Position numbers and translations under genes: made by a program. Below, one piece after another: positions 1 to 39,479 of a stretch of 64,000 nucleotides of DNA. Within the stretch, counting starts at the first letter, position 1, and every line of letters starts with the position of its first letter. Source of the DNA: Ilex aquifolium (taxonomy: Eukaryota > Streptophyta > Magnoliopsida > Aquifoliales > Aquifoliaceae); NCBI GenBank assembly GCA_951799425.1, contig OX637399.1, forward strand, positions 31,308,701 through 31,372,700, in the 5' to 3' direction. Below the pieces are notes generated by a model that did not search any database, was not told the DNA's origin, and saw only the letters and a list, made by a program, of their open reading frames with translations.

Positions 1-180
1 ATTTTTACCGTCAATGGTCAGCGATTAAAACCCTTTGTGGAGAATTTTGTCCAAAATGTGGAGACCATTTTTTTTATTGATCCAGAAAGTATCTCCGGAT
101 ATCACTCCGGAGATTACGCTTGCCGACACAAAAAAGGGTCGGGTCAGTCAGACACCCGACACGATGGACTGCCTTTATAA
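1..180 (+). CDS. 3' end of Ty3/gypsy pol (integrase C-terminus), partial
   Basis: Frame 1 is open from the first base to a TAA at 178-180, giving 59 residues. It begins IFTVNGQRLKPFVENF, the motif found at the extreme C-terminus of integrase in plant Ty3/gypsy elements that lack a chromodomain. The rest is hydrophilic and not recognised. The stop codon lies inside the sequence cctttataaggc, a TATA-like box that also occurs (as cctttattaggc) in the second copy of the downstream cassette. The 5' part lies outside the window. Confidence 0.7.
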   Translation: MFTVNGQRLKPFVENFVQNVETIFFIDPESISGYHSGDYACRHKKGSGQSDTRHDGLPL

Positions 181-182
181 GG
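165..182 (+). promoter_or_regulatory. TATA-like box overlapping the pol stop, head of cassette A
   Basis: The sequence gcctttataaggctccc is followed within about 15 bases by a roughly 100-base pyrimidine-rich stretch, the layout of a plant core promoter and leader. The matching position in cassette B (about 1648-1662) reads gcctttattaggccttcc and is also followed by a T/C-rich leader. Conservation of the box and leader between the two copies is what supports the call. No transcript evidence is available. Confidence 0.35.
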
Positions 183-329
183 CTCCCATCGCTTTTTTTT
201 TTTTTTTTTTCTTTTCCTCACCACACCTTTACTCTTTTCTTTTCTTTTTCTTCTTCTGCTTCTTCTCTTTTCTTCTTCTTCTCCACTGCATCTGGTCTTC
301 TGTACCACGATCCAACCCATAACAGTACC

Positions 330-476
330 ATGTCTGCATTTTTCGATGACCCTATCCTCCTTCTCATGATCTACATTTGTTTGTATTATTTACTTATGGC
401 TGTTCTTCTTCGGGCCGCACTGATGATCAAGGGTTTTTGTCCCAATGAAAACTCAGACCACCCCAAAGATGCTTAA
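330..476 (+). CDS. Small hydrophobic (membrane) peptide, cassette A copy
   Basis: The ORF has 48 codons from an ATG preceded by acagtacc. The peptide starts MSAFFDDPILLLMIY; residues 9-33 are almost entirely hydrophobic, enough for one membrane span, and the tail is polar. A related mini-ORF sits at the same place in cassette B (1815-1946), sharing the acidic DDP at residues 6-8 and the hydrophobic core, which argues that it is translated. Small one-span proteins are common in plant RNA viruses (for example TGBp3), but I see no family motif and do not assign one. A longer frame open from 120 runs through the T-rich leader and is probably not used. Confidence 0.45.
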   Translation: MSAFFDDPILLLMIYICLYYLLMAVLLRAALMIKGFCPNENSDHPKDA

Positions 477-797
477 TCTCTATTTTTTTTTGGTATAGGT
501 CATCGGCGATTGAACAGATCTCCACAGTTAACTGCGTATTCAAGCTCTACAAACCGAAAAACTCGAAACATTGGGGACAATGTTCAGTCTAGGTTGGGGG
601 GTGAGATCTACAGTTTACAATAGTTGATCTGCAGTTTACAGTAGTTGATCTGCGCAGGTTGAACCCGTAAAATTTTCTGTAAATTTTTTTTGTTTTTATT
701 GTTGTATCTGTTCATATTATGTACCTTGTATTAATGATAATATCTGTGGGTCAGTTTTGATCGTCTTTGTGACTGGAAGACGTAAAAAAACCAGATA

Positions 798-1229
798 ATG
801 GGTCATAGAGTATCAATCATGGATGTAAATCTTTTTTGGTTTAGTCTAGGAGTCCTACGTACTTTTCCATCTGATGTACATACCATGATCATGAGAAAAG
901 CAAGATTAGTAAGGAAGGCTGAAATCAAAGAAAAACAAGCGAAACCCCTCTGTGGCCGAAGCAGTTATTCTAAACGTCGTCGTGCTACACGACTTGGTGC
1001 CTGTAAACAGTGTGGCAGATACTTTCATGAGAAAAGATACAACAAATGTTCTGAACCAATTTCCGGTCGCGCAACCGATCGATTAAACTGGATAAAACAT
1101 GGGCTGAGTAAGGATTACCCTGATACGCCATGCTATTCCGGTACTGTGCTTAACCGATTTGTGAGAGAGGAAGTTGGGAGAGTTACTAGTTGTCCATTTT
1201 ACACAGATACGGAGGGGGAATCGGATTGA
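798..1229 (+). CDS. Vitivirus p10/NABP-like cysteine-rich protein, cassette A copy
   Basis: This ORF has 143 codons. Residues 11-40 are conserved with the second copy and contain LFWFSLGVL. Residues 52-68 form a basic block, CGRSSYSKRRRATRLGA, followed by a C-x2-C-x4-H-x6-C arrangement (C69, C72, H77, C84), then ISG-x3-DRL (88-96), and an acidic C-terminus. The order GRS-x-(Y/F)-(S/A)-KRRRA, CxC/CxxC, H, C, SISG, DRL, acidic tail matches my memory of the vitivirus p10 RNA-binding protein, and the basic block plus cysteines also resembles carlavirus proteins. In those viruses it binds RNA, and in grapevine virus A it suppresses RNA silencing. Whether this copy does either is unknown. The first ATG is used here; the ATG at 819 (M8, followed by D9) is conserved in both copies and could be the true start. 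Confidence 0.7.
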   Translation: MGHRVSIMDVNLFWFSLGVLRTFPSDVHTMIMRKARLVRKAEIKEKQAKPLCGRSSYSKRRRATRLGACKQCGRYFHEKRYNKCSEPISGRATDRLNWIKHGLSKDYPDTPCYSGTVLNRFVREEVGRVTSCPFYTDTEGESD

Positions 1230-1814
1230 CCTCTGTGGAAAAATGTACTGAGGTTGGGAATGAGAGCTGAAGGTCCGAGTCTGTAAATTTTATTTTATTT
1301 TATTTTATTTTATTTTTTTATGTTCTGTACAAACTCTTTTGCATATCACTTTCTTTTGTTGTATAATTTTGTTGTTCCTAGTTTCAGATATTGGTGCATG
1401 AGTCAAAGCTCAAGTGCGAGGTGTTCTCTTACCCTACTCATTTTTATTACTATGCACCATTATTGCGCCTGCTGCTATTATTGCGCCTGCCGACACTGCC
1501 GAAAGTAAAGTTAGAAAAAAAAAGGGGGGGGGCCTCCCACTGCCTTTCTTCTTCTTTTTTTTCTTTTCTTCTGCCTGCCAGCTCCTGCCGACACTTTCTT
1601 ATATTAAAAAAAAAAACAAAAAAAAAAAAAAAAAAACAAAAATCTGAGGAATGCCTTTATTAGGCCTTCCACCTTTTTCTTTTTCTTCCACCATCACCGG
1701 TGTTGGTTCCCCCCTTTTCTCTTTCCCTTATCTTCTTCTCTTTCTTTTTCTTCTCTTCTTCTTCGTCGTCGTTCTTTCTGTTCTCTGTAAAAACAACTCA
1801 CCCCCTGTAAATCC

Positions 1815-1946
1815 ATGACCATATACGCCGACGATCCAGTCTTTTGTTTAATAATTTGTCTTATATGTTTGTATGTGTACCTGGGTGCTCTTTGTGTTCT
1901 CACACTTAGGATGAGGAGTTTCCAGAGAAACCCAGATATTCCTTGA
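1815..1946 (+). CDS. Small hydrophobic (membrane) peptide, cassette B copy
   Basis: The ORF has 43 codons and is too short for routine ORF calling. The peptide begins MTIYADDPVFCLIICLICLY; residues 9-31 are hydrophobic and rich in Leu, Ile and Cys, and the tail is short and basic. It occupies the same place in cassette B as the 48-residue peptide at 330-476, and shares M-(S/T), DDP at residues 6-8 and a single hydrophobic span. The sequence between these fixed points has diverged strongly, much more than the larger ORF. It is probably a membrane-anchored peptide if translated. Confidence 0.4.
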   Translation: MTIYADDPVFCLIICLICLYVYLGALCVLTLRMRSFQRNPDIP

Positions 1947-2483
1947 GTTGAGTAATTGTTGTATTTTGTTTGTAGGTTTCGGCAGATGAACAGATCTGTA
2001 CCTTACAACCTTATCTCCACTAGCCCACTAGTGCTAGTGTTGTAAGTATTGCTTGTTTGTAATTTCATTTATATATATATTTGAAATTTGATATCTACAG
2101 CTTGTGATTCTCATGGCTATTTGTCTTTATAAGATTCCTTGTGAATTTGCTATGCCCTCCAATGACTATGTTGTAATTGCTGTTACAGTAAGATCTGATA
2201 ATTTGCCAAATAATCCTCCTCAATCCTATGTATTCTGGGTTTATTCCTTCTTCGTTAATTTGTTTGTTTCATCCTAAATCTTCTTCTTTCCGCTTGTATT
2301 TTGGTATACTTTCTCTAGTTTCGTATTTGTAATTTTAGTTTTAGATCTGAAAAAAAAAAAAAAAAAAAAAATTATTTTTTTTTGGATCGCGTTTTTTTTA
2401 GTATTTGTACCTGTATTTCATGATCACATCGGATGCAGCTTCAACTGTCTTTGTGACTGGCAGACGTTAAAGAACCAGATAGA

Positions 2484-2909
2484 ATGTCTTTAGTCTTAGC
2501 AAGCATGGATCCTAAACTTTTTTGGTTTAGTCTAGGAGTTCTACGCATTTTCCCATCTGATGTGCATGCTGTGATAATGAGAAAAGCAAGGGATGTGAGA
2601 AAAATTGAGATCCGAGAGAAACAACAACAACCATTGTGTGGCAGAAGCAATTTTGCTAAACATCGTCGTTCCAAACGACTGGGTGCTTGTTACCATTGTG
2701 GCAGGATATTTCATATGAAAAAACATAATCAGTGTTCTGAACCAATTTCGGGTCGTGCAACCGATCGATTAAACTGGATAGTGTATGGGCTGAGTAAGGA
2801 TTATCCTGACACACCATCTTATGCCAGTCCGGGACTTACAAGTTATGTGCGACAAGAAGTTGGAAGGGTCACTGATAATGACATAGATCCAAGCGATGAC
2901 TCGGATTAG
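2484..2909 (+). CDS. Vitivirus p10/NABP-like cysteine-rich protein, cassette B copy
   Basis: This ORF has 141 codons and is colinear without gaps with the ORF at 798-1229 over the first 130 residues; I count 90 identical (about 69%). The basic block at 52-68 reads CGRSNFAKHRRSKRLGA. C69, C72, H77 and C84 are all kept, as are ISG-x3-DRLNW (88-98) and GLSKDYPDTP (102-111). The C-terminus is again acidic (DPSDDSD). Substitutions cluster at the N-terminal seven residues and at 112-120, while the putative metal ligands and basic residues are spared, the pattern expected of a maintained protein. The conserved M8-D9 may mark the real start. It has the same viral-type affinities as the first copy. 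Confidence 0.7.
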   Translation: MSLVLASMDPKLFWFSLGVLRIFPSDVHAVIMRKARDVRKIEIREKQQQPLCGRSNFAKHRRSKRLGACYHCGRIFHMKKHNQCSEPISGRATDRLNWIVYGLSKDYPDTPSYASPGLTSYVRQEVGRVTDNDIDPSDDSD

Positions 2910-4773: not shown

Positions 4774-4786
4774 TTAGGTTGGGGGG
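4774..4786 (+). other. Polypurine tract before the 3' LTR
   Basis: The sequence ttaggttgggggg lies directly before the TGTGATT that starts the LTR. A near-identical G-run phrase, tctaggttggggggtg, occurs at about 589-603 just after pol, but that one is not followed by an LTR start. Confidence 0.6.
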
Positions 4787-5054
4787 TGTGATTAACCCTA
4801 ATTAATGCAAAATGTAATTAAATTAAAAGGTCAATTGTGTAATTAAATAAAGTTAAACTAGTCAAAATAAATCTAATTAGGGTTAATGTGTGAATTAAGG
4901 ATAATGCATTGAATGTTGTTCTTTTCAGGTTTTTATGCGTCAAAACGACGGGAGCCAATTATCAAAGTATGGAGAGCAACTTATCAAAGCATAGGGTGTA
5001 AATTATTAAAGCTCAAAACAAAGGGAGATCAAAGTGTAAATCAAGATCTTCTTG

Positions 5055-5185
5055 ATATTTGTAATTAAATATCTTTTAGGATAAATATCTTTTAGGATAT
5101 TTGTAATTAAATATCTTTTAGGATAAATATCTTTTAGGATATTTGTAATTAAATATATTTTAGGATAAATATCTTTTAGGATATT
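5055..5185 (+). repeat. Tandem repeat upstream of the LTR TATA box
   Basis: Copies of atatcttttaggata alternate with tttgtaattaa, with a period of about 47 bases over roughly three copies. The array ends about 15 bases before the LTR TATA box, so it lies in the LTR's promoter region. Confidence 0.7.
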
Positions 5186-5364
5186 TGTAATTTGGATGCC
5201 TATAAATACCCCCCTTGGGGGCTTGTAATGGGCATCCTTCTCTTGTTTCATTTTTCTTGTAAAGAACATTTCTTCCTAGTGGAAAACACTCCAAAGGTCT
5301 TGAATCTTTTTCTTGAATCATCTTTCAAGTATTATTGCTTTATTTACTTTCTTGAGTTATTGTT

Positions 5365-5680
5365 TTCTTTTTATTAGATCTTGGTTGTGAATTAAACACC
5401 AAGAAGTTATTGTTTTCTTTTATGTTTTAGATCTTGGTTGTGAATTAAACACCAAGAAGTTATTGTTTTCTTTTATGTTTTAGATCTTGGTTGTGAATTA
5501 AACACCAAGAAGTTATTGTTTTCTTTTATGTTTTTATTATATCTTGGTTGTGGATTAAACACCAAGAAGTTGTTGTTTTCTTTTTATTAGATCTTGGTTG
5601 TGAATTAAACACCAAGAAGTTGTTGTTTTCTTTTATGTATTATCATCTCTTGGTTGTGGATTAAACACCAAGTATTTATT
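5365..5680 (+). repeat. Tandem repeat of about 57 bp in the LTR (about six copies)
   Basis: Copies share atcttggttgtg(a/g)attaa and acaccaagaagtt(a/g)ttg, with short length changes between copies. The array lies downstream of the TATA box, in the transcribed part of the LTR. Confidence 0.8.
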
Positions 5681-6585
5681 GCTTTCTTTTAATTTAAGTA
5701 TTGTTTTCTTTTACTTCCATTGTTGGAGCTTCCTTCTTCCCCTTAGAGGAGTGAAACTCTTCCACTTTTCTAGAGCTTTACCAAAGCCGTGAAGGGTGGA
5801 ACGTGATTCACTCATTCTTTGTCGAAGATCGGCTCCTTGTTTAGCTATTTTACTTTAAAGCATTTCACTTTTAGTGCTTGAGCATTTTACTTTGTAACAC
5901 CTTTTGGGGATGAGTATCATTCATCATTCTAGCTTTACCATAGCTATGAAGGGTGAGTAGTCCTCATTCACTCTTTGGGAAGAGATGATAGATATGTAAA
6001 AGATTAATCCGGACATTATGTTTGTGTATCACCTTTATGCTTAAATGTTCTATACTCCACTTGATTTTTGGGTGATTGAATGCACCTAGCAAAGTAAAGG
6101 TACTTTGTATAATCAACGGATCTTTCTATGATAAATGGATGACTCCTACATGGAAAGATCCATTGATTCAAGGCAAGTACCCTAACTAACTCTTCATGAC
6201 AAAATTTCAATGTCCACCATTATTGCACTTCATTCCTATCTTCCGATTAATTTGCCGTTGACACGGGAGTTAATTGAGTTATAAAGCATAAACATAATGC
6301 ACCGGATAATCAACTACATATTCTGATTCCCGAACCAAAGAGTGTTTGTTACATTTAATCATCTTATATTTTGTCTAGAAAAATACCCATTGGAAAGAAT
6401 TTTACATTCTATCCAAAACTTCCCACAACTTCAAAATCATAATATTTCCAGTTACAAGTCTTTCTCACTATTTAGTTCAAAGAACACCAACCATAGTTCC
6501 CTGAGGATTCGACTCTGGACTCAAACCAGATTATTACTACAACTTGACCGCCTGCACTTGGGTGTACACATTTCGGATCAAGTCA

Positions 6586-7320
6586 ACAATACTGGCATAC
6601 TAGACTCAGCAAAGGGTCACCTGGGACTACTAGACAATCTAGGTTTAAATCCCCCCTCCCCTCCATTGTTCATTGAAAGAAAAGATGAACTTTCATGTTT
6701 ACTCCCTTATATAAGCACACATAAACGTTGCTTTCATCAAGGTTCTTCTAAAAGTGTTTTCCCCCCCTCCCTCCATCCTATTTTCCCCCCTATGAGGCTA
6801 TGATCTCTTGAAAGGAATTAGAAAGGTCTATTAAGCTTAGGAACTACAATACGCATGCTTCAAACAGTTGGACGCCCACCATTCTAAATGAAAAACCACA
6901 ATCAGGGACTGAACAAACTCACTTCCACATAAAGACATTGCAGAACTTGGATAAGTTTTGAAAGCTTAAAAAAAAAAACAGAGATGGTCTAAACGATGCT
7001 TAAAAAAAACAGACAACGCCTGAACGATGCTTGAAAGTTAGGGTTTTGAGGTTCATTAACTTGATGCTTAAAAAAAAATCAGATATGTAGATGAAGGCCA
7101 CCAGATTGTGCCCAAACAGAGACACAGAGAGAAAGAGAGAGAGAGTACCTGGGGAGGTCAGGACTGAACGATGAAGGCCTGAGCTATGGAGGCATAGACT
7201 TGAGCGATGAAAGATGATGGAGGCAAGAGAAAAGGAGTGGAGTGAGGCGCTCGCTTAGTCAGTAGACGATAAGGTTGGTTAGCAATTAGGGTTTTTTTTT
7301 TAATATATATAAATTAATTA
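6586..7320. other. Sequence without a recognised gene
   Basis: This mixed-composition DNA follows the LTR. It holds short A-runs, a small GA microsatellite near 7130-7146 and three related phrases of the type aacgatgcttgaaa or aacgatgcttaaaaaa (about 6990-7070). I see no intact ORF with family features. Confidence 0.5.
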
Positions 7321-7500: not shown

Positions 7501-7909
7501 TATATTCAATCACTAGCAATAACAAGTGTCTCAAGTCCCTCTCTAATATGAACAATTGAATATTAATTATACAATATTTATATTTTAAATTATAATTTAT
7601 TTGTTTTTTCTATAATTATGTAATTTAAATTAAAGAGAACAGGAAAAAATAAGAGAAATGTGTAGATTAGTAGGGTTGTCTGGTATCAGAGAGTGTGTTA
7701 ATTAAGTTATCTTGACATTGGGGTCGTGCAGAGAATATGGTATTTTTGAGCGGGAAAAAAAATTTGGGATGAATTTGTACTATTAGATCGAAGTAGATAA
7801 AAATGGGATAAATATTGACCGTTGTTATACTTTTATAAGTTAAGAATTCAACTTTCTAAATGTAATATTAGATACATGAATTTCGAAAAAATAAAAAATA
7901 AGATAAATT

Positions 7910-8540
7910 TTATTCACACCACCTAAAGTGATAACTTTATTTAAAGGGTGGTAATTTCACCTCAAAAGATTGTAATCTCACATATACAAGTGATAAATTT
8001 ACTTTTACAGGTTACCTCGAAATAGTTATATCATCACCTCTAAAGTTGATTATTTTACATTAAAGAGTTGTAACCTTATCATAACAGGTTATAACCACAT
8101 AAAAATGGTAACTTTACCTCTATAGGTTGTAACTTAACCTCCAATAGTTTATATTATAAAGATAGTAGCTTTATATTATAGAGTTGTAACCTTACATCGA
8201 AAGCTTATAATCTCACTTTACTTCTTAGAGGTGGTAACTTTACCAAATATAATCTCACCCCAAATGATTGTAACATCTCTTTCAAAGATGGTAACTTTTA
8301 CCTCAAAGGGTTGTAACCTTCTCTCAATAAGTTATAACCTGACTTTAAATGATTGTAATCATACCTTCAAATGTGATCGTTTTACCTTAAAAATATTGTA
8401 ACTTAAACTCAAGAGGTTGTAACCTCACTTATAGTGGTTGTAACTTGATCTCTATAAATTATAATTTAACCTCAAAGAGTTATAATCTCATCTCCAAAAA
8501 TGATAATTTCACCTAAAAGAATTGTAACCTACATCGCATG
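7910..8540 (+). repeat. Degenerate gttgtaacctcacc-type repeat tract (copy 1)
   Basis: Phrases such as ggttgtaacctcac, gataactttacct and attgtaatctcacc recur irregularly about every 25-35 bases. The same tract is present in the second duplication copy at 12770-13410. A weak relative lies near 15890-16010. Confidence 0.7.
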
Positions 8541-8640
8541 ATTTACTTGAAGTGCACTTCGCGATTGTATTCAGCCCAAATTCACAAACTCAAAAAATTA
8601 AATCCACAAATTCAATATTCAAAATTTTTGAAGTCCTCTC

Positions 8641-8735
8641 CATAAATAAATAAATACAAATACAAATATAATAAATAAATACAAATACAAATATAATAAA
8701 TAAATACAAATACAAATATAATAAATAAATAAAAA
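8641..8735 (+). repeat. Minisatellite of about 30 bp, three copies
   Basis: Units of the type ataaataaatacaaatacaa follow each other three times. The tract gives a spurious minus-strand frame rich in Tyr, Ile and Phe. Confidence 0.8.
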
Positions 8736-9561
8736 GGCTTTGTCCAAACCCTACTGGACTTGGGCTAAAAGGTGAGCCCATTTCTTTGCCAAATTAACTT
8801 ACAATTGTAGTCACATAGCTTTCTTGCCCTTCAATTTGTTTATATTCTACGGATATGGGACAACTTGGCTATCATATTTGCTTATATATGTTGCCTTGCC
8901 ATTCTGAGTGTAAGATTCTATCGATGTGGGATAATCTCTTATTACTGATGTGAGAGTATGCTGTGTTATGACATTGCTTATTACGATTTTCACATTCTCT
9001 TTTCTAGTGTGCACAATATCATATATATAAAATTGACGCTCTCAGTGACCCTCCCACTCCTAACTATTTTTGAAATTTTACGTTCTTGGTCTCGCTCCCG
9101 CTCTCACTCTATGTGATCTAGGTTTTAACCTTATTAGAAGAAATTGTAACTTTCTCCGGTTCAATAAGTAATGGGTTAACAATAAAATAATAATAATACA
9201 AACAACAAAGTGATGATCAATGGCTGTAATATATGCATCTAGACAAACATTCACCCATAAAAGTTAATAAATAAAATATAAAAAAAAAAATTTGATGTAA
9301 ACCTGTATGACAAACTATTTAATTTTTAAATAAATATTAATTATAAGATCCTGAAATAAAAATTATAGGTTATAATAAATATTCTAATTTGATATGTATC
9401 TTTATGAATGAATCATAACTTTTCATATAAAATTTTAAGTAATAATGAGTAAGCACATGAGTAAGTGAGGATCAATAATGGCCATCGCAACCGGCCGTTG
9501 GACAGTAAAATCGCAGGTTAAAACCTCACCGCTCTTTCTCTTGTACAAGTTCAAAATAATG

Positions 9562-9565
<4 letters not shown>

Positions 9566-9623
<58 letters not shown>
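9566..9623. repeat. (TA)n microsatellite
   Basis: This is an uninterrupted TA run of about 29 repeats. The corresponding place in the second duplication copy (about 14787-14816) has a shorter TA run ending in acacacaa. Confidence 0.95.
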
Positions 9624-9624
<1 letters not shown>

Positions 9625-10087
9625 TAAGAGCTCAAATTCAAGAATTTTATGGAATAAAAGTGAGAATTGATGAAAAAATTGCTCTCATAACACGAATTCG
9701 TCCACGAAACGAGGAAGCGAATGCTATTTTGTTTCTTTTTTCTTTTCTATTTTCCTTCGAGATACAAAGTGACTAGCGTGTCGTACAATAAGGTATAGAA
9801 AGTCTATCCTGGACAAGTCCATTTTGGAGCTTTGAATTCTTCTACAGAATTTATCTGATAAGCTTGAGATGAAACTTGCGGAATAATTTTCAGTTTGAAT
9901 CTGTCAAGTTCTTGAATAAGATAGCTGACAATTTAGTGATCGTAGTTAAATGGATGATCTTGTTTTTCTTTTTGAAACAGTAAATGGACGAGTTTGAGGA
10001 TTTTTTTTTATTTGGAAGATCATTAAATTATATTTACACTTGGGACAAGAGAGAATATCCTTTCGGGGGCATCCTCGGCCCCACATC

Positions 10088-12427: not shown

Positions 12428-15375
12428 AATTTTAAATTATAATTTATTTTTTCTATAATTATTTAATTTAAATTAAAGTGAACAGGAAAAAATAAGAGAA
12501 ATGTGTAGATTAATAGGGTTGTCTGGTATTAGAGAGTGTGTTGATTAAGTTATTTTTACATTGAGGGTCGTGTAGAGAATATGATATTTTTGAGCGAGAA
12601 AAAAAAATTGGGATGAATTTTATACTATTGAATCGAAGTAGATAAAAATTGGATAAATATTGACCGTTGTTGTGCTTTTATAAGTTGAGAATTCAACTTC
12701 CTAATTATAATATTAGATACATGATTTCCGAAAAAGTAAAAAATAAGATAAATATTATTCACACCCCCTAAAGTGATAACTTTATTTAAAGGGTGGTAAT
12801 CTCGCATCAAAAGATTGTAATCTCACCCATAAAAGTGATAAATTTACCTCTAGATGTTATAACCTACCTCGAAATAGTTACATCATCGCATCCATAGTTG
12901 ATTACTTTACATTAAAGAGTTGTAACCTTATCATAACAGGTTATAACCACACCTCACCTCAGCCTAAAGATGGTAACTTTACTTCTATAGGTTGTAACCT
13001 AACCTCCGATAGTTATAACATCACCTCTAAATGTAATAGTTTTATATTATAGAGTTGTAACTTGTAACCTTACTTCCAGAGTTTATAATCTCACTTTAAC
13101 TCTTAGAGGTGATAACTTTACCAAATATAACCTCACCTCAAATGATTGTAACATCACTTTTAAATATGGTAACTTTTACCACAAATGATTGTAATCTTTC
13201 CTCAACAGGTTATAACCTGACCTTAAATGATTGTAACCATATCTCCAAATGTGATCGTTTTACCTTAAAAATATTGTAACCTAAACTCAGGAGGTTGTAA
13301 TCTCACTTGTAATGTTTGTAACTTGGCCTTTATAAATTATAATTTAACCTTAAATAGTAGTAATCTCACCTCCAAAGATAATAATTTCACCTGAAAGGAT
13401 TGTAACCTACATCACATGATTCACTTACACACTTCTTGATATTCAACCCAATTTCACAAACTCAAAAAATCAAATCCACAAAAAATCAAATGCGCAAATT
13501 CAATATTCAAATCCGCAAATTCAATATCCAACCGCAAATTCGATATTCAAATCTGCAAAAAATCAAATCCGAAAATTCGATATTCAAATGCACAAAAAAG
13601 CAAATTCAATATTCAAATCCACAAAAAATCAAATACGCAAATTCAATATTCAAATCTGCAAATTCGATATTCAAATCCACAAAAAATCAAATACGCAAAT
13701 TCCATATTCAAATCCACAAAAAATCAAATACGCAATTTCCTTCCATATTCAAATCCACAAAAAATCAAATACGCAAGTTCAATATTCAAATACACAAATT
13801 CCAAATATGCAAAAATCAAATACGCAAGTTCAATATTCAAATACACAAATTCCATATTCAAATCCACAAAAAATCAAATACGCAAGTTCAATATTCAAAT
13901 CCACAAATTCCATATTCAAATCCACGAATTGAATATTTTAAAATTTTAAGTTCTCTTTATAAATAACAAATAAATAAATAAAAGGTTTTTTTTTCAAACC
14001 CAACTAGACTAGTAAGTTTTATATAGCTTTCTTGCCCTTCAATTTGTTTATATTCTACCGATGTGGGACAACTTGGTTATGACATTTGCTTATAAAAGTT
14101 GTCTTGCCATTCAGAGTGCAAGACTCTACCGATGTGGGAGAATCTATTACTAATGTGAGATTCTGTTATGTTATGACATTGCTTATTACGATGTTCACAT
14201 TCTCTTTTCTAGTGTGCGCAATGTCATATATATAAATTTGACGCTCTCAGTGACACTCTCACTCTCAACTATTTTTGAAATTTTACGGTCTCGCTTTCGC
14301 TTCCGCTCTCATTCTATGTGATCTAGGTTGTAACTTTATTCGAAGAAGTTGTAACTTTCCCATGTCACTGGTTCAATAAGTAATGGGTTAACAATAAAAT
14401 AATAACAATACAAACAACAAAGTGATGATCAATGGCTCTAATATATGCATCTAGACAAACATTCACCCATAAAAATTAATAAATAAAATATAAAAAAATA
14501 AATTTCATGTAAACCTGTATGACAAACTATTTAATTTTTAAATAAATATTAATTATAAGATCCTGAAATAAAAATTATAGGGTATATTAAATATTATAAT
14601 TTGATATGTATCTTTATGAATGAATCATAATTTTTCATATAAAATTTTAAGTAATCATGAGTAAGCACACAAGTAACGGAGGATCAATAGTTGGCCTAAT
14701 GGCCATCGCAGCCGTCGTTGGACCGTGAAATCGCAGGTTAAAACCTCATAGCTGTTTCTCTTGTACAAGTTCAAAATAATGACAAAATATATGTATATAT
14801 ATATATATATATATATACACACAAATAAGTAAGAGCACAAATTCAAGAATTTTATAGAATAAAAGTGAGAATTGATGAAAAATTTGCTCTCATAACACGA
14901 ATTCGTTTACGGAACGCGGAAGTGAATGCTATTTTGTTTCTTTTTTCTTTTCTATTTTCCTTTGAGATACAAAGTGACTAGCGTGTCGTACAATACAAAA
15001 AATTTATCCTGGACAAGTCCATTTTGCAAGCTTTGAATAAACAGTAAAGTCTTCTTGATGTTTTAGTCAATATTCTTCTACAGAGTTTATCTGATAAGCT
15101 TGAGATGAAACGTGCGGAATAATTTTCAGTTTGAATCTGTCAAGTCCTTGAATAAGATAGCTGACAATTTAGTGATCGTAGTTAAATGGATGATCTTGTT
15201 TTTCTTTTTGAAACGGTAAATGGACGAGTTTGAGGATTTTTTTTTTATTTGGAAGATCATTAAATTATATTTACGACTCGGGTCAAGAGAGAACATCCTT
15301 TCGGGACATCCTCGGCCTCACATCAACGGGGGAGAGACCTCTTGCCATAAGTAACTCGAATTTAACCCGAAAAAA
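12428..15375 (+). repeat. Large direct duplication, copy 2
   Basis: This is the partner of 7585-10145. It is longer mainly because of a minisatellite at about 13470-13930 that copy 1 lacks. It ends with cttgccataagtaactcg and acccgaaaaaatt. No gene is evident. Confidence 0.7.
13470..13930 (+). repeat. Minisatellite of about 35 bp built on aatcaaata and aattcaatattcaaa
   Basis: Units alternate atccacaaaaaatcaaatac with gcaaattcaatattcaa for about a dozen copies with variants. The frame of about 176 codons over this tract is a repeat translation (Ile, Gln, Lys, Asn and Ser only) and is not called as a gene. Confidence 0.85.
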
Positions 15376-16571
15376 TTATATATAATCTTGAAATATTACA
15401 ATCCTTAATAATCTTGAAACCAAAAACTCAACCAGAATATAAAAATCAAAAAGTATGAAGCTTTAGAATTAGAGAGAAGAAGAAGAGAATAATTTTCATC
15501 ATATACTTTGATATTGCAATTCAACTCTAATAATAGTGTTCTATGCATTACTTCATGACAGAATATATCCCTTCATTACTATGGTAGAAGACACCTCTTA
15601 GAAGGTTTGAAACAATGTAGCCATTAGAGAGAAAACTGAAACAAAAATTAAAAATTTAACTGTCGAACGTAACTAACTCTCAGTATTTCGATTTTGAGAT
15701 TTTTTGAATTCTCTACCAAATTACTAAGAGTAAGTTACATTCGAGCGAGGGTTACATTCAAATATACCAAACTCTCAATATCTCAGAAACTGAGTTTTTG
15801 ATAAAGTATTAGGAGTAAGACTCGTTTTTTTTAAATAATTTTTTAGGGTCATTTTACAACTTTTGTGATGACTTGCAATCGATCTTAAAAATGTTAGGAT
15901 TGATCGTAATATTTTTAAGATCGATTACAAGTTACCATAAAAGTTGTAACTTGATCCAAAAAAATTGTAATTAAAACATTAAAAGTTGCAATTTAACCCA
16001 AAAAGTTGAAAAAAAAATTTGTTACTTGTATCAAAATTCACCCAAGTTATAAAATTTGGAGGTACCGTAGTCTTTTCCAAATGTATATACTAGCAACAAA
16101 GACATCAAATCTGATCAGCTTTTGAATTTTTCAAAATACCATGTGCATGTTCTTTGCTGAGAAAATGCAGGGAAGGCTAATCAGTCTCTTTCAGCTAAAA
16201 GTCGGCAATGTGATGAAGCCCAAGATTTCAATCCTTTACACAAGTCAAAGGACTAAACCTCTACGTAAGCATTATCAATCCGCAAGCAACCTCCATGACG
16301 GCCACAAGACATTTGTATAAACCTTGGACTATTTTGTAATTCAAAACAAACTAAATTGGAAGAGAAGGCAACAATGAAGTTTCCTCCATAGACTAAATCA
16401 GAAGAGAGTAAAGAGCAATGAAGTTTCCTCTGCAAACAAGTCATTAAAGTTGCGTCTTTTTATTCCAAAAAAGGAGCTACCCAAATTCCTCATTCAACTT
16501 ACAACCCAATCTATTACTCAAAAATCGATCAATTCGCCATTTTTGAGTTTGCAACTATTGTCATCAAGTTG
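15376..16571. other. Non-coding sequence and upstream region of the lectin receptor kinase
   Basis: This AT-rich DNA includes short relatives of the gttgtaac repeat (15890-16010). In 16250-16445 two phrases containing atgaagtttcctc recur about 50 bases apart (16374 and 16423). The last 100 bases, with aattcgccatttttgagtt, presumably hold the leader of the kinase gene. I cannot place a TATA box with confidence. Confidence 0.4.
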
Positions 16572-18560
16572 ATGCACTTGTGCGGTATGTCTTATGCCAA
16601 CAAGTGTATGTTCATTTCTCGAATTGTCAATCTTCTTGTGGTAGCAACTCTCTTGAGTAACTCTGTTATTCAAGCAAAGTCCTTAAATTTCAGCTATGCG
16701 AACTTCACCAGCCAGAACGAGATAGATTTCACCAAGATAGGTGATTCAAACATAGCTATTGGTGCCCTTCAAGTGACACACGAGGCTCGTTTAGTTCCTA
16801 TCGCAAATTTAGCTGGACGGATATTGTATAAACGTCCATTCCAGCTATGGAGGAAAAGGAAGAATATCACAGCGTCCTTTAACTCTACCTTTGTTGTTAA
16901 TATTACTCCCCAGAACAACACAATATGGGGTGAAGGACTGGCTTTCATATTGACAAACGAAAGTGGTTCTGTCCCAGATAACAGTTCAGGGCAATGGCTT
17001 GGTGTTGTGAATGCAAGCACAAATGGGACTACACGAGGCAACATTTTCGCGATTGAGTTTGACACGAAGAAGAGCTTCGAGGAGGATATCGATGACAACC
17101 ATGTTGGTATTGATGTAAACAGCATTTACTCCATCGAGCAAGTCTCATTGAATGGCATTGGTGTTAATCTTTCGAGTGGTGTTGATATCCCCATGAGGGT
17201 TCAGTATGATGGGGGACTAAAGACCTTGGCCATATATATATTGATGACCAACACTTCAGGATACAACATGAACAGTCCCATAATTTCGAGGCCTCTTGAT
17301 CTCTCTGAGCATCTTTCAGAAGATGTTTATGTGGGATTTTCAGCTTCCACAGGGGAATATACTCAGCTCAACTGTATAAGGGCTTGGAATTTCACTAGTA
17401 CAGACATTGATGATGATGATACAGCCAACCTCTTGTGGATGTGGATCTTAATATCAGCTGCTCTGATTGCCTTTCTAGCTGGCCTTATCTTTGTCCTGTG
17501 TTGGAGAAGGAAAATGAAAGAGAAGCAAATACAAAAGGATTCGAAAGTGGAGCTACAGATTCAGGGTTCAGCATCTGCTCCATTGAAATTCCTGCTGAAA
17601 GACGTTAAACACGCCACCGCAAATTTCCACCCTCAGAACATGCTCGGGAGAGGAGGATGTGGGATAGTCTACAAAGGACTATTAAGCAAAAAAGAGGTAG
17701 CTGTGAAAAGATTCTCAAAGGATTCCAACCAAGGGGTGCAAGATTTCATAGCAGAAATCACAACAATTGGCAACTTCCATCACAGAAACCTTGTCAAATT
17801 AATTGGATGGTGCTATGAAAAGAATGAACTAGTTTTGGTATACGAGTTAATGCCAAATGGAAGCCTAGACAATCACCTATTTTACGATGAGTCTCGAGAC
17901 ATGGGAGGTTCTAGTTCTACACTGAGTTGGGAAAGAAGGCATATAATCATTTGTGGTGTGGCAACAGCACTGGATTATCTTCACAATGGGTGTGAAAAAA
18001 GGGTGCTTCACCGGGACGTTAAATCCAGCAATATAATGCTGGATTCAGAGTTCAATGCCAGGTTGGGAGATTTTGGACTGGCTAGAACCATTCAATTAGG
18101 AGGAGAAACTCATCACTCGACGAAAGAGATTGCTGGGACGCCCGCGTATATGGCTCCAGAGAGTTTTCATGTAGGCAGGGCAACTGTCGAAACAGATGTT
18201 TATGCATTTGGTGTTCTACTACTTGAAGTTGCCTGTGGAAGAAAGCCTGGAAATCTCAGAATCATTGATTGGGTATGGGAACTATACCAGAGGGAGGAGA
18301 TAATCGAAGCCATGGATATCCGGTTGAATGGAGATTTCAACAAGGAGCAAGCAGAGTGTGTGCTCAGGTTGGGATTAGCATGTTGCCATCCGAACCCGTA
18401 TCAAAGGCCCTCCATGAGGACTGCTTTGCAGGTTCTTACTGGAGAAGCAGCTCCACCACCCATCCCTAGTGAGAAACCTGCATTTACATGGCCAGCTATG
18501 GCTCCATCAGCTGCAGAAATTTGGATTACACTCTTGGAGGAAACCAACTCACACCAATAA
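16572..18560 (+). CDS. L-type lectin-domain receptor-like kinase
   Basis: This is a single-exon gene of 662 codons, a normal length and structure for the LecRK family. A signal peptide lies near residues 14-36, and a legume-lectin domain spans about 38-275 with IEFDT (161-165) and the metal-site stretch DDNHVGIDVN (174-183). Many NxS/T sites are present. One membrane span lies at 287-310, then a Ser/Thr kinase domain at about 355-625 with GRGGCGIVYKG (359-369), K379 in VAVKR, E395, HRDVKSSN (480-487), DFG (500-502) and APE (528-530). All catalytic residues are present, so it should be an active plasma-membrane kinase sensing an extracellular ligand, often in defence. The juxtamembrane and kinase sequence suggests the S.5/IX side of the family. 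The first ATG is at 16572; ATGs at 16587 and 16608 are alternatives, and the last gives the cleanest signal peptide. Confidence 0.95.
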   Translation: MHLCGMSYANKCMFISRIVNLLVVATLLSNSVIQAKSLNFSYANFTSQNEIDFTKIGDSNIAIGALQVTHEARLVPIANLAGRILYKRPFQLWRKRKNITASFNSTFVVNITPQNNTIWGEGLAFILTNESGSVPDNSSGQWLGVVNASTNGTTRGNIFAIEFDTKKSFEEDIDDNHVGIDVNSIYSIEQVSLNGIGVNLSSGVDIPMRVQYDGGLKTLAIYILMTNTSGYNMNSPIISRPLDLSEHLSEDVYVGFSASTGEYTQLNCIRAWNFTSTDIDDDDTANLLWMWILISAALIAFLAGLIFVLCWRRKMKEKQIQKDSKVELQIQGSASAPLKFLLKDVKHATANFHPQNMLGRGGCGIVYKGLLSKKEVAVKRFSKDSNQGVQDFIAEITTIGNFHHRNLVKLIGWCYEKNELVLVYELMPNGSLDNHLFYDESRDMGGSSSTLSWERRHIIICGVATALDYLHNGCEKRVLHRDVKSSNIMLDSEFNARLGDFGLARTIQLGGETHHSTKEIAGTPAYMAPESFHVGRATVETDVYAFGVLLLEVACGRKPGNLRIIDWVWELYQREEIIEAMDIRLNGDFNKEQAECVLRLGLACCHPNPYQRPSMRTALQVLTGEAAPPPIPSEKPAFTWPAMAPSAAEIWITLLEETNSHQ

Positions 18561-34180: not shown

Positions 34181-37100
34181 ATGGCCGAGGCAATTGGGTT
34201 CTCTATTTTGGGAAAATTCACGGAAGTGTTTGCAGACTATTTGGTGGTCCCAATGGGACGAAAGTTTGGATATCTATTTCGCTACAACAACAACATTCAA
34301 AATTTGAAAGACGAGGTCAAGCATCTAGAAAACATAAGAGTTGGGGTGCAGCTATCAGTAGACGCAGCCGAAAGAAACATAGAAGTTGTTGGACCACATG
34401 TGCAGGACTGGTTGACGGAAGTGGAAGTGGTCAAAAACGAGGTAGACGAAGTTCTTGAACACACAACCAAAGTTGAAAGGGGTTGTTTGAATGGATGGTG
34501 CCCGAATCTGGTATCTCGTTACTCGCTGAGTAGGAAAGCCACGAAAAAGACTCAGAATATCTATAAACTCAAACAAGATGGGGACAAGTACACTAAATTG
34601 GCATACCCTGCACCACCCATGCAAATGGCTTCCGTATCAACAGAAGATGTCGAAGGCCTTGAATCCAGGATGTCGACTACAAATGAAGTTATGGAGGCTT
34701 TGAAGGATGGTGAGATCAGAATGATTGGGATATGCGGTATGGGTGGAGTGGGTAAAACAACAATGGTGGAAGAAGTTGCCAAAAGAGTACAAATTGAGAG
34801 GTTATTTGATGAGGTTACCATGGCTACTGTGTCCAACAATCAAGATTTAATAAAGATTCAAGGTGACATAGCAAACATGTTGGGTTTGAGCCTTGAGAAT
34901 GAAACTAGTCTTCTTGCAAGAGCAGATAGACTTTGTACAAGATTGTCAAATGGCAAAAAAATTCTTGTAATATTAGATGATGTTTGGGAAGAACTTGATT
35001 TGAAAAAACTTGGAATTTATTTTGGAGGTGGCCAAAAAGGGTGCACAATTGTATTGACTTCTCGAAATGAACATGTTTGTATTGAGATGGGATCTCAAAA
35101 AAGCATTGTAGTCCAAGTCCTACCTAAAGACGAAGCATGTAATCTTTTTAAGAAGCTGGCGGGAATTACCAATGACATTATTGAGCTACAGGCCATAGCA
35201 AAAGAGGTTGCAAATGAATGTGGAGGCTTACCTCTTGCAATTGTAACTCTCGCCAAGGCACTGAAAAGTGAAAAGGAGCATTCGTGGAATAATGCACTTC
35301 GAGAACTACAGAGGTGTAACAGACTACCCGAAAAGGTTCAAACCAGTATAGAGTTGAGCTACAATATGTTGAACAGAGAAGAAGCCAAGTCATTGCTTCG
35401 ACTTTACAGTTTATTTCCAGAAGATTCCAATATTCCCATCGAGTGTTTGGTTAGATATGTGGTAGGGCTATGTTTGTTTGAAAAAGTTGATACTGTGGCA
35501 GAAGCAAGAGATATGGTGTACTCATTAAACGATCAACTCAAAAGTCGTTACTTGATACTCCCCAGTGATGTAGAGAAAGTGAAATTACATGATGTCGTAC
35601 GCGATGTATGCATATCAATTGCATCTAAAGGTAGGGAAGCATATTTGGTAAGGTGTGATGCAGGATTGAAAGAGTGGCCACAAGAAGATACATTCAAACA
35701 TTACTCAGCCATTTCATTGATGTTCGACCAATTGAACAAGCTTCCTACTGGATTAGATTGTCCGAACCTCAAGCTCTTACAGGTGCAATGCAAGCATGCT
35801 CCAGAATACAACGCCACTAATGAAAGATGTACCAGATTTGACTCAATAGATTTTTTTGAAGGGATGAAAGAACTCAAAGTTGTTGATTTCAGATCAATGT
35901 TCCTTCAGCTTCCACCACAACCACTCAAATCTTTGCTAAATATTCGAACATTGTGTTTGGATTTTTGCCGGCTAGACACTAACACATCCTCCATGATTGG
36001 AAGCCTAAAGAGCTTGAGAATTCTCAGCTTTTTTAAATCTTACATTGAGGAATTACCGAGTGAAATTGGACAACTTGAGCATCTACAAATATTGGATTTC
36101 AGGTTTGCGGGACGCCGTGGAAGAATTTTGCCAAATATTTTGTCCAAGCTGGATAAACTTGAAGAGTTGTATGCGGGCGAAAATGACGTGAATGCTAGCA
36201 TTGCAGAGTTGAACTCAATGTCTTATCTGAACACTTTGGATATTTGCACAGGTGTAACTGCTATGCTAAAATTGAAACACTTTCGCTTTGATAACCTGAG
36301 AAGATTTTGCATAACAATTGGTTCTCCGTTCCTAATCAATAGATCGAAAGGCTACGGGTTACAAAACAGCTTGAATCTCAATGATTGTGACTTGGGTATG
36401 CTTTATGATTTTGGGATAAAAGTTTTGCTGAAGAGATCCAAACATGTCTTGTTTGACAGGATAAAAGGCTTGGGAAGAAATATTTTCGATGCCCTTGATG
36501 TAGATGATTCGGTAAGCTGGGAGGAACTAAGTGTTTCTCATTGTGATGAGCTCGAATATTTTATTTGTAGGGATATTCCGGTGGAGACCTTTGCCTTTGG
36601 AAAACTGCAAATATTGAAGCTAGAGAACCTACCTGCAATGAAGGGTCTATTTCCACAGTCCATGGTCAAATGTTTAGTGCAACTCCAAGAACTAGAACTA
36701 GTAGGGTGTAAGAAAGTGGAATACATTGTTGCAAAGGAAGGAGGAGAAGATGAAAAAGATTCTGAAACCATCGTTTTCCCAAAACTGAAGTGGTTGTGTT
36801 TGTGGTATCCGGACATGCTTAGAAGCTTTTGCTCCAACTCAGATATTTTGTTCCCCCAACAGGTGTGCTTCTCTTTCTTGAATATATCTCCAAAATTACT
36901 TTAGCACAACACTGATATGTTTTACTTTATTTTGATTTGTTTGTACACATCACACCTCAATTTTTAGTGGGAAACAACTTAGAAATGAACATGTTTAGGA
37001 TACTTTAGAAATGAATACCTTAACTTCCTGATGAGAAGGCAAGAATAAAACTTCCTCCCTCCATCCCAAATTTATTTTCATCTGTGAAAAAGCAAATAAT

Positions 37101-39303
37101 TTAGGGAAAAGATTTTTTATTAAAGATGAAGGATACTTTAGAAATGAATACCTTAACTTCCTGATACTTGTAATGCATTTATGATTAAAGAAAGAAACAG
37201 AAAGTAAGAAATTCTAGTGGGGCGAAGGAATTTCACCACCACACAAAAATAGTTTCTCTAAATTGGGATTTTGCTGCTCTTGAATTCACCGTCATTACAT
37301 CATCTTTTTTCTCTTTCACCCTCTTTATTTCTATTTATAAACAATAGACTCTCTCTCTCTCTGAAAAAAAAAAACCACAAACATACACACATACTCTCCC
37401 CCACTTCCACGTTATTGTTTTTTTTAAGAACCTGCTTGGTTCTTTGGAGATTATTAAGAATTCTATTGCGTTAGTACTTAAATCAGAATTCTAATTTTTT
37501 TTTTTATAGTTTTTTATATATACTTATGCATATCATATTGGAGTTGTCAGAAATGTTAATTTGTTTGTTATAAAATGGTATTACAAACATGTGACTTGCA
37601 ATAGACATTATATATGCTTCTTGTGGAAAAAAAAAATAGTCAATTACCCTTGAGGTATGTCATCTAACTTTTTTTTTTTTTTATGTTGATCGTAAAATGT
37701 GGTGGTGACTAAGTTCTTTGAAAAAAAGAATTCATTTAATTATTTAACAACTAAAATGTTGTTAACAGTGGCAGAGGCACACATGGGCCAGGGGACCCGA
37801 GCCCACCTTATTTATTTATTTTTTTACCTATGTATGTCTCGTATATTTTTTTTTAATATCTTCAATTGAGTCCACCCTAATGTCTTTAAGTAAACAAAAT
37901 TGAGTCCATTTGTTTTTTGGGAGGGGGAGGGGGGAGGGGAAACAAATGTTAGTGCCCCTCAATAGGACATCATAGGAGAAACAAGTTTAACACAAACAAC
38001 CATGATAGTATGTGGTTCAAAAGAAAAATATGATAATTAATATAGCACAACGACGAAATAGAATTCATGTAATCGACTCTAGTTTAAACAACCCTTTGTT
38101 GGGTTAAAATCTTTAATCCAAATATGCTTTAGCATCCAATTATTGTTTTAGAATTAGATTCCAATCATATGAAAGAGGATTGCTTAGTTACCTATGAAAG
38201 TGGTTTATATTTTTATATTGATCAGAATACTTTTATTTAATCTTATTGACGCTCCTTAAAAATTGATATTTTTGCCAAATTTTAAAATCATTTGTCAAAA
38301 TTTAATTGAAAAATGCAGCCCTAAAGTGCAATTTGTCCGCAAAAAGTAGAGGGTTTCATATAGGCTGATGTTTTATTCAATGAAGCTCCTTTTTTTTTTT
38401 TTTCTGTGCTACGTGTAATTAAGTGTTATTGGACATACATAGGGTTTATCATGATCACTTACTTGAAAACTTCATATAATCGTAGGTTTTTCTGCCTAAC
38501 TTGGAGCAACTGCTTCTTCGCGGAATTAGTGTGGTGCACATAGTAGACTACCAAATGCAAGGTGGGTCCTTCCACAAACCAAGAGGCTTGGATGTGTCGT
38601 ATTGTCAAAAGGTTTTCAATGTTGTTGCACCTGGTCAACTAACACTATTTCCAAATGTCAAACGCCTTTTTGTCCGAGATTGTTGCGAACTGGAAGCAGT
38701 GTTTAACTTCGAGGGGTTAACAACTAAGAGAGATCATGCAGAAGTCACACTTGGTCAGTTGGAGTCATTGGAATTAGGTTACTTACCTAAGTTAATGCAT
38801 GTATGGAGGATGGTTCCCAAAAAACTTCGAGGTTTTCAGAATTTGACATTCTTTGATATTGAGAAGTGTGATAGCTTGAGATACCTATTGTCACCTACTA
38901 TCGCGAAATTGCTTGGGAATCTAAAGTTCCTACGGGTTCACAGGTGCAAGATGATGGAAGAAATTATTGACACGGAAGAAGATCTTTCCAAGATCAAGAT
39001 TTTAGACGAGATCATTACTACACAGGATGAAGAACAAATGATAGGGGACAAAATTTTGTTTCCACAATTGAAAAGGATATCCCTTGGAAATCTAGAAAAC
39101 CTCAATTGCTTTTGTTCTGGAAACTATGAATTTCAATTTCCGTCATTGAATAAACTGGAAATTAACGGCTGTCCAAGCATGAAGACTTTCTGCTCTGGAC
39201 CACTAAGCACAGGAAAGCTTGCAGAAGGAAAAATATCCATTAGCAGACAAAGACGATCATGGATGGGTGATCTTAACACAACCATACAAAATGCAAGCGA
39301 ACT
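34181..39303 (+). CDS. CC-NBS-LRR (CNL) immune receptor, RPS2/RPS5-like clade
   Basis: Exon 1 is 34181-36862 (894 codons) and exon 2 is 38486-39303, joined by a donor cccaacag/gtgtgc and an acceptor atcgtag/gttttt in phase. The N-terminal coiled-coil region spans about 25-170. The NB-ARC domain has the P-loop GMGGVGKTT (186-194), kinase-2 LVILDDVW (262-269), RNBS-B TIVLTSRN (289-296) and GLPLA (349-353). At the MHD position the protein reads LHD (469-471). LRRs run from about 500 through both exons. All ATPase motifs are present, so it looks functional: a cytoplasmic receptor that detects pathogen effectors. The end is uncertain: splicing at 39304 to an acceptor at about 39983 gives a stop one codon later, while reading on gives a stop at 39373. 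The ATG at 34181 follows a purine-rich leader. Confidence 0.9.
36863..38485 (+). other. Intron within the LRR region of the NLR gene
   Basis: This intron of about 1.6 kb is AT-rich. It contains two copies of ggatactttagaaatgaata (about 37000 and 37130), a T/C-rich low-complexity patch with spurious frames (37290-37400), and a transposon-like patch near 37770-37975 with ggcagaggcac and gtgcccctcaatagga. No gene is seen inside. Confidence 0.6.
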
Positions 39304-39479
39304 GTATGTCTTTATTCTTTTCAATTTCTTCCTTTTATTTCTCACTTCCCCCCTGAAAATTAGAAGAAAATAGTTATCTATGCACTATTGCCCAGTTTCA
39401 TTTCAAGGCTAAACTATTTCTCTCCTTTAAGTCGTCACTTTCCTTCTTGTCATCTAGCCTCAACGATGAATCAGAAGAA

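Follow-up and report, generated by a model that had tools for sequence, protein, structure and literature searches.

Two NABP genes inside a Ty3/gypsy element

Two intact ORFs related to the nucleic-acid-binding proteins (NABP) of betaflexiviruses are found near the start of the window, as the whole 64,000-nucleotide stretch of Ilex aquifolium DNA analysed here is called (G000:C9:31308701-31372700; assembly of 800 Mb, 103 contigs). ORF1 (798-1229, + strand) encodes 143 amino acids, features a CX2CX4HX6C zinc-finger pattern and has a net charge of +13 (K+R minus D+E). Its paralogue ORF2 (2484-2909, + strand) encodes 141 amino acids, with a net charge of +7 on the same count. Both were identified by ORF listing and Pfam. 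The two paralogues are about 66% identical; a gap-free alignment from the MD start gives 88 identities in 122 residues, in line with the 90 identities over 130 residues, in ORFs of 143 and 141 codons, that an earlier sequence-only reading had counted. The basic GRS block, C69, C72, H77, C84 and the ISG-x3-DRL motif described in that reading are all present in both ORFs, the last as the stretch ISGRATDRL, and the four Cys/His residues do not vary among the 12 rows of an alignment of element-type sequences (A1). A basic block followed by a Cys/His finger, the order typical of the Viral_NABP / Carla_C4 family, is found in both.

The profile search proposed against these two families placed both ORFs above the curated cut-offs. 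PF05515 (Viral_NABP; cut-off 23) matches ORF1 with E 7.3e-11 (42.9 bits) and ORF2 with E 1.5e-12 (48.4 bits), PF01623 (Carla_C4; cut-off 20.9) with E 7.3e-6 (26.3 bits) and E 3.3e-5 (24.2 bits), respectively. A profile of 14 viral proteins gave 53.5 bits for ORF1 and 54.5 for ORF2, against a maximum of 9.6 in 1000 shuffled versions; its rows had been collected with profiles that already included the window proteins, a dependence that the Pfam models do not share. Comparison of A1 with a viral-only alignment by hhalign gave a probability of 99.2%. The likeness to the viral families is not due to chance, and ORF1 and ORF2 are, with near certainty, homologues of betaflexivirus nucleic-acid-binding proteins sited inside a Ty3/gypsy element. 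The label "vitivirus p10-like" first given to them holds as to the betaflexivirus families and is too narrow as to the genus, because the N-terminal region of the element protein is absent from the vitivirus rows of the viral alignment A3; the rows of Peach mosaic virus and of carlaviruses do have it. The AlphaFold model built from A1 is poor (pLDDT 43), and no conclusion was drawn from the fold.

The carrier of the two genes is one complete Ty3/gypsy element of about 14 kb, which extends into the 10 kb directly upstream of the window (L009). In L009, a gag ORF includes a Retrotrans_gag domain, and the pol ORF encodes protease, RT, RNase H and integrase, arranged as in Ty3/gypsy elements. The pol frame runs from L009 5420-10000 into the window, where the end of the integrase occupies positions 1-180 (+ strand; stop codon 178-180). 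A polypurine-tract-like sequence (4776-4788, + strand) directly precedes the 3' LTR (4789-6585, + strand; TG...CA), the 5' partner of which lies at L009 2616-4454. The ORFs thus sit between pol and the 3' LTR, as originally described. The LTR includes a TATA-box-like TATAAATA (5201-5208, + strand) and is followed by the target-site duplication ACAAT (6586-6590, + strand), the same five bases being found at L009 2611-2615. Paired TG..CA LTRs, a PBS-like site, a PPT and a 5-bp TSD, all hallmarks of Ty3/gypsy elements, are present. The PBS-like TGGCGCCGTTGCCGGGGA near L009 4461 resembles the tRNA-Asp type; neither the window nor L009 contains tRNA genes. The LTR pair shows 6 differences in 1798 aligned bases and one 42-bp indel; with substitution rates of 1.3e-8 or 7e-9 per site and year, this dates the insertion at about 0.13-0.24 million years.

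Gag and pol of this element are parted by one in-frame stop, which two distant copies lack. A splice-donor-like GTAAGT is found near the gag end, and a CX2CX4HX4C knuckle early in the pol frame (L009 5534). By its layout the family is likely OTA/Athila-like. The Athila ORF-1 domain PF03078 was not matched in the gag, pol and ORF pieces scanned; one survey reported this domain from only 16% of Athila elements (PMC6317226).

An endogenous betaflexivirus fragment was considered and rejected: the eight other ORFs of at least 60 aa in window 35-2726 have no viral Pfam match up to E 0.1, and no ORF of at least 60 aa is listed between 2910 and 4788. Betaflexiviruses encode this protein in the 3' terminal part of their genome; the genes described here are found in a Ty3/gypsy element and encode homologous proteins, without being a viral gene in its original place.

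The rest of the window hosts a large direct duplication (7755-10009 and 12600-15245), made of blocks of 88-98% identity spaced by about 4.8-5.2 kb; short-period repeats lie in between. Intact-looking genes for a lectin receptor kinase (16569-18560) and an NB-ARC/LRR resistance-type protein (34181-36904), and an RPS2-type LRR piece (38501-39373), are also found; the kinase and NB-ARC/LRR genes mark the DNA as that of a plant. Rfam detected nothing at gathering score in the window.

Copies, subfamilies and a conserved leader

Both genes are repeated in the genome. For ORF1 the best 150 of 4098 candidate places were scored, for ORF2 the best 150 of 4093; all are 99-100% identical and free of stops, 90 of the former and 66 (over full length) of the latter being identical. 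Scores limited to the best candidates favour intact copies, and the remaining candidates are to be regarded as unverified copies. As paralogues of this divergence cannot appear in both lists, at least 300 places are represented altogether. ORF1 is listed 1546-2334 bp upstream, on the same strand, for at least 35 of the 66 full-length identical ORF2 places. A wider set was obtained by scanning the genome with PF05515, in which the best 150 of 3095 candidates are all above the cut-off, 3 with an internal stop; the same scan found a match in none of 14 control genomes. With P0051, a protein of the NABP group C described below, the best 150 of 2556 candidates show 32-42% identity, and 13 have a stop in the matched stretch. 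Some NABP places in either scan are hence decayed.

Eight loci, chosen mostly from the lower part of the 150 listed PF05515 places, were read with about 4 kb of upstream DNA (L052-L059). In L052, both NABP ORFs follow an integrase that shares 98.6% identity with the integrase of the window's element. The remaining seven feature one NABP ORF each within the 5-kb stretch, a second one beyond it being possible, and in five of these an integrase, mostly 66-84% identical, precedes the ORF. Gag and protease precede it in L057 (the same place as L061) and L059, where RT-integrase is missing, and protease adjoins it in L060 and L062. These four loci, all lacking RT-integrase, retain gag and/or protease plus an NABP ORF, and may be non-autonomous derivatives. 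A third subfamily, with an integrase 94% identical and an ORF1-type gene, is represented by L063 and L064. Twelve ORF1 loci (L010-L021) all have an integrase upstream, 98.7-99.6% identical.

Altogether, gag or pol of the window element's family adjoins NABP in 25 of 25 testable loci (L010-L021, L052-L060, L062-L065), and among these, a small sample, no NABP copy lies outside a retroelement. Thirty-eight loci without RT/integrase match (L001-L008, L022-L051) are uncounted, their flanks covering only 1.5 kb upstream of apparent ORF2-type genes and falling short of pol. The expectation that the same ORF would be found in other elements is borne out, as related ORFs are located beside the same gag/pol in divergent subfamilies. 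A tandem array is also present at G000:C2, about 23,935,965-23,960,518, with 17 listed matches mostly 1518 bp apart; its units, read in L065, contain the 3' end of the integrase and an ORF1-type NABP ORF.

Alignment of the ORF starts revealed a conserved 30-nt leader at 763-792 before ORF1 and at 2447-2476 before ORF2 (both + strand), the two forms differing by 3 mismatches. The leader is present at all nine aligned NABP starts (in L056 its first part only) and also precedes the ORFs of L060 and L062-L065. Searches allowing up to 8 mismatches in the window and up to 9 in L009 found it nowhere else. Window ORFs and those of divergent subfamilies are separated by dS values above 1.2 or undefined, and the leader, being kept despite such distances, is probably functional. 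It may be a 3' splice site or another expression signal. A stem within it is not claimed, because among the variants, inspected by eye, some pairs were kept and others broken.

Selection and relatives

ORF1 and ORF2 differ by dN 0.18 and dS 0.82 over 122 codons, corresponding to dN/dS 0.22; longer alignments gave 0.29 (135 codons) and 0.28 (134 codons). In other NABP pairs the ratio, where defined, is mostly 0.08-0.45. Higher values were obtained in three pairs with dS 0.07-0.27 (L054-L055, 0.49; L054-L056, 0.48; ORF2-L052 ORF2, 0.59), and four pairs with L058 are saturated at dS and give no ratio. In neutral simulations at 0.4 substitutions/site, ORF1 stayed free of stops in 36 of 5000 runs and ORF2 in 57 of 5000. 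Purifying selection, not neutral drift, has kept both genes, which answers the dN/dS comparison initially proposed. Integrase ratios are lower, at 0.04-0.09 against L053, L054 and L056, whose integrases contain 1, 4 and 1 stops in the aligned part; the ratio is 0.14 against L052, and L055 and L058 give no defined value. Against L053, L054 and L056, NABP gave 0.17-0.27 for ORF2 and 0.25-0.34 for ORF1. These higher values denote weaker constraint or a faster-changing gene. ORF2 of L052 contains an ORF1-like patch, which suggests exchange between the paralogues.

The A1 profile found 27 relatives among 5.8 billion proteins, including the Grapevine virus A RNA-binding protein (E 1.4e-7) and Carrot vitivirus 1 protein (E 8.8e-3). 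A wider profile found 58 proteins, among which vitivirus, carlavirus and Peach mosaic virus members and a partial protein of Striga hermonthica, encoded on a 2.88-Mb contig. No relative was detected by scanning genome contigs with A1, nor by tblastn of phages and plasmids. Viral-contig scans with ORF2, A1, A5, A3 and A4 were similarly empty, an absence that says little because the viral alignment A3 itself found nothing there.

A first tree of 41 rows was made from the two ORFs and 39 of the 61 proteins found. Both window ORFs fall with 12 further proteins into one group A (97/97), in which ORF1 clusters with P0006-P0010 to the exclusion of ORF2 (98/95), and ORF2 weakly with P0001-P0005 (92/63). 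Grouping separately, the paralogues must derive from a duplication older than those splits. P0009, of ORF1 type, and P0014, ORF2-like by its C-terminal end and outside the tree, are each encoded by one 2941-base contig from the same source, probably the same contig. In a second tree (33 rows) group A has lower support (79/39); the group of ORF1 is retained (91/100), and rows of ORF2 type do not form a clade. Two further NABP groups, B and C, were noticed, one made of P0015-P0030, the other of P0046, P0048, P0051, P0053 and P0054, Striga hermonthica being represented among them. Several degenerate members (P0024, P0025, P0035, P0049 and P0059) have a stretch upstream in common, as would be expected of genomic elements present in many copies.

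A putative anti-silencing gene and its known counterparts

The explanation we favour, by a little more than even confidence, is that a Ty3/gypsy family carries a betaflexivirus-type NABP gene as an RNA-binding, silencing-shielding accessory gene expressed from processed small mRNAs. The NABP gene occupies the place of the "env-like" extra ORFs of other plant elements. One NABP ORF is seen in most of the copies read from divergent subfamilies, and the young subfamily of the window features two diverged, separately preserved paralogues, each with its leader. Each paralogue would obtain its own small mRNA by processing of the genomic transcript, probably through splicing at the leader or close to it, and the basic zinc-finger protein would bind the RNA of the element and shield it against host silencing, as homologous virus proteins do. 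We infer the virus-to-element direction, the splicing, the RNA binding and the anti-silencing action as parts of this best explanation. Protection from silencing by an RNA-binding accessory protein is the most likely mechanism, at a confidence just short of even. The Grapevine virus A member of the family has silencing-suppressor activity. Suppression by ORF1 and ORF2 is a purely homology-based prediction, drawn from the carlavirus cysteine-rich proteins, which are reported to be silencing suppressors (PMC10219291, PMC12172455). Not every NABP relative need be a suppressor.

The main rival, appreciably less probable, holds that NABP is a structural or replication factor, i.e. an RNA chaperone or nucleocapsid helper acting in packaging or reverse transcription. 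The CX2CX4HX6C finger is close to the retroviral zinc knuckle; the element, however, already has a knuckle of its own close to the start of pol. A gag-linked factor would be expected to persist with gag and/or protease, as NABP does in the four copies devoid of RT-integrase; these copies suit a gag-linked role no less than an anti-silencing one, but retention in deletion derivatives may be passive.

As to direction, the betaflexivirus gene could conversely have come from plants, its source being either a retroelement or a gene of the plant, which we judge unlikely. The gene is diverse and numerous in the DNA of this plant, and groups B and C provide further non-viral members in public data. 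The unrooted tree allows such a transfer, because neither arrangement is rejected by AU tests, be it one clade of all plant sequences (p 0.44) or one of all viral sequences (p 0.45), which leaves room for transfers in either direction and in any number. Against it, the viral matches come from vitiviruses, carlaviruses and Peach mosaic virus alike, a spread that points to an old viral gene, and the testable loci, few as they are, include no copy independent of a retroelement. Of the initial proposal that the element acquired, kept and duplicated a gene of RNA-virus type, keeping and duplication stand, and acquisition from a virus is one of two directions compatible with the AU tests. None of the outcomes that the earlier reading had named as contrary to its proposal was observed.

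A nuclear regulator, i.e. a transcription or transport factor serving the element, is more doubtful still; the basic block and the finger would suit it, and accessory proteins acting in the nucleus have been considered for other plant elements (PMC7264820). A captured host zinc-ribbon protein (ribosomal eL37 or eL43) with a superficial viral match is scarcely credible, since the weak PDB matches of ORF1 to eL43/L37Ae (best E 0.0048), echoed by one source that labels P0009 "ribosomal protein L37AE/L43A", fade with the family profile (best E 0.11), while both ORFs exceed the curated cut-offs of the viral families.

If the anti-silencing reading is correct, this lineage may long have carried a silencing suppressor of RNA-virus type, and its duplication into two specialised paralogues may have gone along with a recent burst that produced hundreds of copies; the groups found in Striga and other sources may mean a wide or repeated origin of the alliance. 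This broader scenario is tentative. It addresses the open question of how plant retrotransposons evade RNA silencing long enough to burst. The NABP gene links the gene pools of plant RNA viruses and retroelements, and an extra ORF located after pol and having clear viral relatives, some of measured activity, makes its role directly testable.

Retroelements with RNA-virus-type genes are already known; new here are an NABP gene in a plant retrotransposon and the 30-nt leader. Among the titles and abstract openings listed in searches of open-access papers, none describes an NABP gene carried by a retrotransposon. The element proteins share with the betaflexivirus NABP and cysteine-rich proteins (PF05515, PF01623) a GRSTFAKRRRA-type basic block, the Cys/His finger and a D-R-L...G stretch, but are encoded by a Ty3/gypsy element, are duplicated, include an N-terminal region that vitivirus rows lack and have a leader of their own. 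According to PMC7264820 and PMC6317226, extra ORFs after pol are present in many plant elements and mostly without known relatives. The env-like ORFs of Athila and SIRE described there are similarly in sense orientation after pol; the NABP ORFs, in contrast, have a clear RNA-virus homologue. The eORF survey applied a minimum of 250 codons (PMC6317226), and would hence have missed ORFs of 141-143 codons. Insect retrotransposons carry viral SF1 RNA helicase domains, for which weak silencing suppression is reported, and a benefit to element or host discussed (PMC6338049). Both cases concern an RNA-virus-type gene in retroelements, but the helicase domain is found in insect LINEs or fused to LTR-element proteins, whereas the gene described here is a free, small, duplicated ORF of a plant gypsy family. 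In orchids, Ty3/gypsy elements that include an ORF for an m6A demethylase are reported (PMC9289625), AlkB domains being found also in flexiviruses: these too are plant gypsy elements with an extra ORF acting on RNA, which belongs to a different protein family.
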